Origin: Burkholderiaceae bacterium
Lineage (GTDB): Bacteria; Pseudomonadota; Gammaproteobacteria; Burkholderiales; Burkholderiaceae_C
Length of the DNA stretch: 64,000 bases
Direction: 5' to 3'
Assembly: GCA_913776825.1 (NCBI GenBank)
Contig: CAJYPV010000027.1
Location: forward strand, 186,001 to 250,000
A model generated the notes under the pieces. It did not search any database, was not told the origin of the DNA, and was given only the letters and a program-made list of their open reading frames with translations. Both the position numbers and the translations under genes were made by a program. Shown piece by piece: positions 62,120 to 63,558 of this stretch. The first letter of the stretch is position 1, and each line of letters starts with the position of its first letter.

Positions 62120-62931
62120 GGCGTCTGCTGCATCTGACCCATCGGCATCGTTCGCCGGCCACCAACCAGGCCTTGGGTCTGTTGCTGGCCTTCAATGCGG
62201 GCGCGGTGAATGCGGGCGGCTTCCTGGTGCTGCAGCGCTACACCTCGCACATGACCGGCTTCGCGTCGCAATTGGCCGATGGCGCCGTGCTGGGCCAGAC
62301 CACGCTGGTGCTGAATGCGCTGGGCGCGATCCTGGCGTTCATGGCGGGCGCGGCGGTGTGCGCGCTGCTGGTCCATTGGGCCCGTCAGCAGCAGTTGCGC
62401 TGTGTGTATGCCCTGCCGCTGCTGCTGGAAGCGGCGCTGCTGTTTCCCTTCGGCCTGATGGGCGCGATCACCCTGAGCTGGCACACGCCGTTCGCCGTGC
62501 CGCTCACCGTGCTGCTGCTGTCCTTCATCATGGGCTTGCAGAACGCGGTGGGCTCCAAGACCTCGGGTGGCCGCATCCGCACCACCCACATGACGGGCAA
62601 CATCACCGATCTGGGCATGGAGCTGGGCAAGATGCTGTATTGGAATCGCCAGAGCCGGCGAGCGGCGCAGTCGGCGATGCCCGAGGGCTCGACCGCCAGC
62701 CCGCTGCCGGAGGCCATCCGATCAGGCGTGCATCACAACCGCCAGCGCGCCGCGATGGCGGCCAGCCTGCTGGGCAGCTTTGTCCTTGGCGGTTTCGCGG
62801 GCGCGCTGGGCTTCCAGCATGTCGGCTTCATCTGCGTGGTGCCGCTGGCGGCGCTGCTGTTCGCGCTGTCGGTGATGCCGATGCGGCGCGATGGTGCGCG
62901 CTGGCGAGCGATCCTGCGCGGCGAGGGCTGA
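62116..62931 (+). CDS. DUF1275 (YoaK-type) membrane protein
   Basis: The protein has 271 residues if it starts at the GTG at 62116. In-frame ATGs at 62071, 62017 and 61963 give longer, Arg/Pro-rich N-termini without clear ribosome sites. Six or so helices are predicted. Conserved DUF1275 segments are NAGAVNAGGFLVLQRYTSHM, GLQNAVGSKTSGGRIRTTHM and TGNITDLGMELG. The family is of unknown transport-like function. A charged loop (about 175-210) with RRAAQSAMPEGS separates the last helices. Confidence 0.85.
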   Translation: MRRLLHLTHRHRSPATNQALGLLLAFNAGAVNAGGFLVLQRYTSHMTGFASQLADGAVLGQTTLVLNALGAILAFMAGAAVCALLVHWARQQQLRCVYALPLLLEAALLFPFGLMGAITLSWHTPFAVPLTVLLLSFIMGLQNAVGSKTSGGRIRTTHMTGNITDLGMELGKMLYWNRQSRRAAQSAMPEGSTASPLPEAIRSGVHHNRQRAAMAASLLGSFVLGGFAGALGFQHVGFICVVPLAALLFALSVMPMRRDGARWRAILRGEG

Positions 62932-62991
62932 AAAAAAAGTCCGCTCGACTGGCGCAAAGTCCCAACGGGACGCTGCGCCAGCGGAGCGGAT
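62931..62991 (-). terminator. Strong leftward terminator, probable end of the LexA-controlled transcript
   Basis: Nested arms TCCGCTC/GAGCGGA, TGGCGCA/TGCGCCA and GTCCC/GGGAC form a long stem-loop. On the minus strand it is followed by eight T residues. No T-run exists in the DUF1275 direction. The natural user is leftward transcription from the promoter at 63530. Confidence 0.85.
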
Positions 62992-63302
62992 CAAGGGGGT
63001 TTGAAATGGTGAAACTGAACGAGACAAAAGAGCGATGAAGACGCGTGACGGCATCGTCACCGCAACCCTCCAACGATCGGTCACGGCAACGTCGCGGGAC
63101 GCATCAAAGAACTGGCAGCGAGACGCGGCGCCGGGCTGCCGTCGACACTCCCCGTCGGTGATCCTGCAGTGAACCTGCAGGGATCGTCGACATCCGCCCG
63201 GGGCCGGTATTCCCAGGCAGACGTCTCATCCACGGGTGAGCGACGGCGAACCGATCGCCGGGCCGGAGCGGTCGGGCGGACCGTCCTGCCCCGCTGCACG
63301 CA
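62992..63302. other. Region between the micro-protein and its terminator
   Basis: About 310 bases. An inverted repeat GATCC-TGCAG...CTGCA-G-GGATC (63160-63185) is present. No conserved ORF is seen on either strand, so this would be an untranslated 3' tail of the LexA-controlled transcript. Confidence 0.4.
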
Positions 63303-63413
63303 TCAGCCCAGCACGCCGGTGGCCAGTCCGAGACAGGACAGCACACCGATGCACAGCACCCAGGCGTCGGCATTGTTCAGCGAGGACCAGACTCGTTGCT
63401 TCAGGACTTGCAT
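63303..63413 (-). CDS. 36-residue single-pass membrane micro-protein, predicted SOS-inducible
   Basis: This gene is too short for the ORF track. The ATG at 63413 follows GGAG with a 6-base spacer (GGAGATGGCCATG); ATGs at 63419 and 63425 are in frame but less well placed. The peptide has a polar N-terminal half (MQVLKQRVWSSLNNAD) and a hydrophobic C-terminal helix (AWVLCIGVLSCLGLATGVLG), a type of small bitopic membrane protein. It lies about 110 bases downstream of a LexA-box promoter and upstream of a T8 terminator. By analogy with SidA or TisB it might inhibit division or depolarise the membrane during DNA damage. That function is inference. Confidence 0.6.
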   Translation of the reverse strand: MQVLKQRVWSSLNNADAWVLCIGVLSCLGLATGVLG

Positions 63414-63529
63414 GGCCATCTCCATGTCGGTGCCGGCTGAGCGCGTCAGCGGCGGGGTGACACCGCCCGGTGGGGCGGCGGCCGATGACGTGGATCCGGA
63501 GACCCGCGCCGTCGGCTGCGATGGAAAGG

Positions 63530-63558
63530 AATGTACTGTATGTGCATACAGTATTCAA
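63530..63558 (-). promoter_or_regulatory. Sigma70-type promoter enclosing the LexA box
   Basis: On the minus strand TTGAAT (63558-63553), a 17-base spacer and TACATT (63535-63530) fit sigma70 with ideal spacing. The LexA palindrome fills the spacer and touches both hexamers. Transcription would start near 63523. Confidence 0.75.
63534..63553. promoter_or_regulatory. LexA (SOS) box
   Basis: TACTGTATGTGCATACAGTA matches the E. coli LexA consensus TACTGTATATATATACAGTA at 17 of 20 positions, with the essential CTG-N10-CAG intact and near-perfect dyad symmetry. Confidence 0.85.

Follow-up and report, generated by a model that had tools for sequence, protein, structure and literature searches.

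A very probably undescribed, putatively LexA-controlled gene for a 36-residue single-helix protein in Roseateles and related genera

The window, that is, the whole 64-kb stretch of DNA that was analysed, carries on its minus strand a short transcription unit in which a LexA-box promoter, a leader, a 36-codon gene and an intrinsic terminator follow one another (Table 1). A first-pass annotation of this DNA had described a box matching 17 of 20 bases within the 17-base spacer of TTGAAT/TACATT, a 36-codon frame with its own GGAG that encodes a polar half followed by a hydrophobic helix, and a nested stem-loop with T8 that closes the unit. All of these elements are present in the sequence, and they hold up on comparison with relatives. 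The gene is shorter than the usual gene-calling length cut-offs and may therefore be absent from annotations.

Table 1. Features of the small-protein locus, in window coordinates
Feature	Coordinates	Strand	Basis or remark
-35 hexamer TTGAAT	63553..63558	(-)	Sequence; TTG(A/C)nn in the corresponding position in genus members, G009, G050, G023, G083 and g30
LexA box TACTGTATGCACATACAGTA	63534..63553	(-)	0 mismatches to TACTGTATNNNNATACAGTA; box retained in relatives
-10 hexamer TACATT	63530..63535	(-)	17 bp from the -35 (spacer 63536-63552); TA(C/T)ATT or similar in relatives
Inferred transcription start	about 63523	(-)	
5' leader	63424..63523	(-)	Length varies among relatives
Ribosome site GGAG	63420..63423	(-)	6-nt spacing to the ATG; GGAG likewise shortly upstream of the start codon in members inspected
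36-codon gene MQVLKQRVWSSLNNADAWVLCIGVLSCLGLATGVLG	63303..63413	(-)	ATG at 63413, stop at 63303; conservation, dN/dS 0.11, AlphaFold2 helix
Conserved, mostly unpaired 3' segment TTCAGTTTCACCATTTCAAACCCCCTTGA	62991..63025	(-)	Directly precedes the terminator; may act as a 3'-UTR small RNA
Intrinsic terminator, nested hairpin and T8	62931..62990	(-)	Fold of the last 120 nt (hairpin 62940-62990, T8 at 62931-62938); hairpin and T-run in genus copies

Judged by its pattern of substitution, the 36-codon frame is a real gene under purifying selection. Across 14 distinct coding sequences from the genus, pooled pN/pS is 0.18 and median dN/dS 0.11, while the other two frames of the same DNA give ratios of 0.84 and 6.0. 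Variable sites number 15/36, 3/36 and 25/36 at first, second and third codon positions, respectively. The assigned start is supported by a relative (L014) in which no earlier ATG adjoins the gene (RRDAMQVLK). A longer, 40-residue product beginning at the in-frame ATG at 63425 was rejected because this codon is present in some relatives only, and in most relatives the GGAG abuts the next ATG. The frame is kept in 15 of the 16 genus genomes, 14 of which carry it at 82-100% identity and one, G009, in divergent form; the sole genome lacking the gene (G007) gave no remote match either. Among the named relatives are Roseateles depolymerans, R. terrae, R. aquatilis, R. noduli, R. chitinivorans, R. 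subflavus and Mitsuaria chitosanitabida.

The LexA box agrees with the E. coli consensus TACTGTATATATATACAGTA at 17 of 20 bases and with the pattern TACTGTATNNNNATACAGTA at all 16 specified bases, the four free bases standing outside this count. It is the sole exact match to that pattern in a scan of the 5.74-Mb genome and the only exact CTGT-N8-ACAG within the window. Eleven genome sites lie within three mismatches of the LexA pattern, and a reversed control pattern gave no genome match even at that tolerance. Since several of these sites precede textbook SOS genes (lexA, imuA and splB-like genes, with names assigned from sequence), the motif appears to be a working LexA motif in this genome. 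Of 201 family genomes, 24 contain exact boxes; those inspected often stand before imuA, splB-like, lexA, dinB and dnaE2-like genes, and in four genomes before the small-protein gene. At the locus itself, the box sits past the 3' end of a PepSY gene, so that the 36-codon gene is its only evident target. Service of the box in the opposite direction was rejected, as the transcript would then be antisense to the PepSY gene. Generic scans for promoters and terminators reported neither the TTGAAT/TACATT promoter nor the hairpin at 62940-62990, an outcome attributed to their strict rules; both elements are supported by their conservation in relatives.

LexA-like boxes also precede other unknown proteins in the genome. 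At three loci (L003, L007 and L008), such boxes (1501-1520) are each followed by a member of a single family of roughly 130-150 aa (MLVRALLLRHxG...YExRDGRG...), of which the one member searched had no Pfam match. Boxes at L002 and L003 precede a family of ~90 aa (LNDxxSIxxWWAVYPxRHGALLxDWARRRPEHR) with no significant Pfam match, whose gene at L003 is divergent from the MLVRALLLRHxG family gene. LexA-like boxes at L005 and L009 stand before proteins of about 137 and 145 aa, again with no Pfam match.

Every copy of the small-protein gene within the genus has a box of 15-16/16 (14/16 in G009), located about 35-190 nt upstream. In profile searches, seven further genera yielded remote members, and each of these members was checked for a box, with scores of 16/16 in g30 and G127, 15/16 in G050 and G083, 14/16 in G023 and 13/16 in G100. 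G311, with a canonical CTGT-N8-ACAG (11/16), and G221, with a degenerate box (11/16), are the most weakly supported members. At 85 comparison loci, the best box score in about 3 kb is 9-12/16. Profiles this short give only rough E-values and the alignment was built up iteratively, so remote membership rests on score and LexA site jointly, and low-scoring profile matches with no LexA-type site were treated as chance. The promoter layout, TTG(A/C)nn followed after 17 bp by TA(C/T)ATT or similar, is found in most remote members too. In the window's GTDB family, where about 141 genera were sampled, members occur in 8; outside that family, order-level scans (399 and 170 genomes sampled) gave no followed-up match with both a convincing score and a box.

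The upstream PepSY gene is common to the genus only. Neighbours of the remote members include mutS, a transporter and a response regulator (named from sequence), and as these members occupy unrelated loci, box and gene appear to travel together. In the genus g30 (L047, L031), the gene is divergent from an apparent mutS, a mismatch-repair gene. No division gene or lexA is in genomic linkage with the family, the lexA of the window's genome being on another contig. The first-pass annotation had proposed that a Burkholderiales lineage carries here a so far undescribed gene that LexA controls and that encodes a small membrane protein with one helix, and had suggested a search of relatives for the frame with a LexA box upstream. 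That combination was found in the 15 genus genomes and in the seven other genera, which supports the proposal. On sequence grounds, the existence of the small-protein family and its control by LexA are almost beyond doubt, and it is highly probable that LexA controls a translated membrane protein.

The family is united by the motif [D/N/E][P/A]xxW[V/I]xx[I/L][A/G]xxxxxG[L/I/F]xxG, derived from 11 diverse members of 36-83 aa, in which W18, G29 and G33 are invariant. Each of the 11 has one predicted helix of ~19 residues with no charged residue, and G29xxxG33 lies within this one transmembrane helix. The N-side is net positive and the C-side neutral or negative in 11/11 proteins compared; the positive N-side predicts an N-in/C-out topology. 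AlphaFold2 models helices at 2-13 and 15-35, with a pLDDT of 91 for block 21-30. Conservation has a periodicity that peaks near 100 degrees per residue, as would a single helix face, at marginal significance (permutation p about 0.05). The Roseateles and g30 proteins stop at the helix, and the other remote members add a C-terminal tail of 20-45 residues. In three of the tails (L151, L154 and L156), a similar stretch was noticed (VLHLARAD, EVVRLAAAE and LVVLQAQAD), possibly a second functional site, which is absent from Roseateles.

Searches against known families returned no threshold-passing match for the protein or the locus in Pfam, NCBIfam, Rfam or PDB, the PDB giving only chance matches to transporters. 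None of 13 members matched a Pfam toxin family, domain searches of the peptide found no LysM after the helix, and the SulA domain PF03846 had no match in the peptide and none in the genome. A likeness of one remote member, EPESWILGIGGLTVLGL, to PEP-CTERM was rejected at 12.2 bits against a cut-off of 20.7 (E 0.21); the window protein had no match. A literature search brought up no account of a gene of this kind for this group. With a perfect LexA site here and such sites before relatives in at least seven other genera, the family is very probably a DNA-damage-response gene so far undescribed. Lysis and holin-like genes are small, membrane-borne and often SOS-induced, and one left over from a prophage or bacteriocin and controlled by the SOS response would present a similar picture. 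This explanation is extremely improbable: no phage or plasmid relatives were found, viral matches extend over 11 residues only, PHROG scores are weak, and the chromosomal neighbours are ordinary. A phage or plasmid origin was rejected on the first two of these grounds.

Within Roseateles, the 3' end of the unit is conserved as well. The last 120 nt of the transcript fold at -44.7 kcal/mol (z -5.7), and a hairpin with T-run lies 68-364 nt past the stop in 14/14 close genus copies. The window and its closest relative share 89% identity over the last 95 nt of the transcript, against 67% elsewhere in the 3' UTR. A mostly unpaired TTTCAGTTC-type segment precedes the terminator in most of the genus, and the tail has a single copy in the genome. 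In the relatives L018 and L024 the TTTCAGTTC motif is repeated, and L018 has an extra GGTCCCC hairpin. Such conservation would be expected if the RNA were the main product, with the 3' end of an SOS transcript acting as a small RNA and the frame being secondary. The clear protein-level selection on the frame, the remote members that keep the protein but show neither this tail nor a strong terminator, and the lack of an Rfam match make this reading very improbable. It is possible, as a lead only, that the conserved Roseateles segment and terminator form a 3'-UTR small RNA besides the protein. A dual transcript, in which an SOS division brake is encoded and the Roseateles 3' end is released to tune other mRNAs in DNA damage, is quite unlikely.

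The features of the protein suggest a mechanism in which a free-standing SOS gene brakes division. LexA bound on the promoter spacer would keep the gene silent, and upon DNA damage RecA-driven cleavage of LexA would release a monocistronic mRNA. Translation from the GGAG site would yield a 36-residue inner-membrane protein with its basic N-terminus inside, helix 15-35 across the membrane and the C-terminus at the outer face. W18, I22, S/T26, G29 and G33 would lie roughly on one side of the helix, where a second membrane helix could dock. The partner would most likely belong to the septal wall-synthesis complex (FtsW/FtsI/FtsN), and the protein would hold back division until the DNA has been repaired, in the manner of Caulobacter SidA. 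Induction, membrane location and docking are predictions; that the target is FtsW/I/N and the outcome division arrest is proposed with moderate confidence only. A partner-binding division inhibitor is favoured because the helix is uncharged, the tryptophan and GxxxG are fixed, the leader is unconserved (short in one clade) and the genome is without SulA. The mechanism as a whole is put forward tentatively, at slightly below an even chance. Counted against it are the patchy distribution, the lack of division-gene linkage, the marginal face periodicity and the C-terminal tail of most remote members, which Roseateles lacks. Self-assembly is a further use to which the GxxxG would be suited.

Many small bacterial membrane proteins regulate another membrane protein, and a conserved helix face suits any specific helix partner. 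The gene could accordingly encode a damage-switched regulator of a transporter, protease, sensor kinase or respiratory enzyme, unrelated to division. The patchy distribution and missing division-gene linkage fit such a role, and the upstream neighbour in Roseateles is itself a PepSY membrane protein. That neighbour is, however, absent beside the remote members, and the known single-helix proteins under SOS control that the literature search turned up affect division or membrane energetics; a target of this kind is rather unlikely. Alternatively, the product might be a depolarising peptide of the TisB/DinQ kind, SOS-induced in the inner membrane and checked by antisense RNA, that lowers proton-motive force and ATP and favours dormancy. 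The family is like DinQ in its size, in its single helix and in its control by LexA, and the leader is long in the window's clade. The helix carries no charged residue, however, while its tryptophan and GxxxG are strongly constrained, and matches to Pfam toxin families and to RNA families (Rfam) are lacking. The leader is also unconserved: in one Roseateles clade the start falls only about 40 nt past the box, which leaves little room for a regulated leader. A depolariser is thus unlikely.

The division brake proposed above has its closest counterpart in SidA of Caulobacter, a LexA-controlled inner-membrane protein of 29 aa with FtsW as partner (PMC4211646). SidA, SosA and YneA are single-helix SOS division inhibitors, and YneA acts on FtsW (PMC4211646, PMC6851548, PMC13396833). 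The family, compared with SidA by description only, is likewise predicted to be a tiny LexA-controlled single-helix protein of the inner membrane; SidA belongs to a different bacterial class, and the FtsW partner has been shown for SidA only. Staphylococcus SosA, Bacillus YneA and mycobacterial ChiZ are SOS-induced with a single helix and the C-terminus outside, as is predicted for the family, whose remote members mostly are also tailed. These proteins are longer and their genes commonly lie beside lexA, and YneA and ChiZ carry LysM (PMC6851548, PMC13396833), whereas the Roseateles protein ends at the helix, has no LysM and is encoded away from lexA.

Among depolarisers, DinQ is a LexA-controlled peptide of 27 aa with a single helix, and DinQ and TisB belong to the type I toxins, which have an antisense RNA and a processed leader (PMC3567139). 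These E. coli peptides are also small, LexA-controlled and located in the inner membrane, but their type I architecture does not appear to be conserved here; together with the uncharged helix and the invariant tryptophan and GxxxG, this makes a SidA-like partner-binding peptide a better fit than a TisB-like depolariser, the other of the two models that the first-pass annotation had named. The weak likeness of EPESWILGIGGLTVLGL to PEP-CTERM (E 0.21) differs in kind, since the PEP triplet, signal peptide and basic C-terminus are all absent from that member. For multi-chromosome beta-proteobacteria, a 2012 comparative study predicted LexA regulation of two hypothetical genes, hypA and hypB, the latter in Burkholderia only (PMC3323433). 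These are also predicted LexA-controlled unknowns of the same class, and the family, compared with them by description only, may overlap them. No description of division arrest during SOS in Burkholderiales was found in the literature, and the genome has no SulA; with its conserved LexA promoter and three invariant residues, the family is a concrete candidate. No relation was detected to the library families of SidA, SosA, YneA and DinQ, and if confirmed, the family would be a further single-helix SOS effector.
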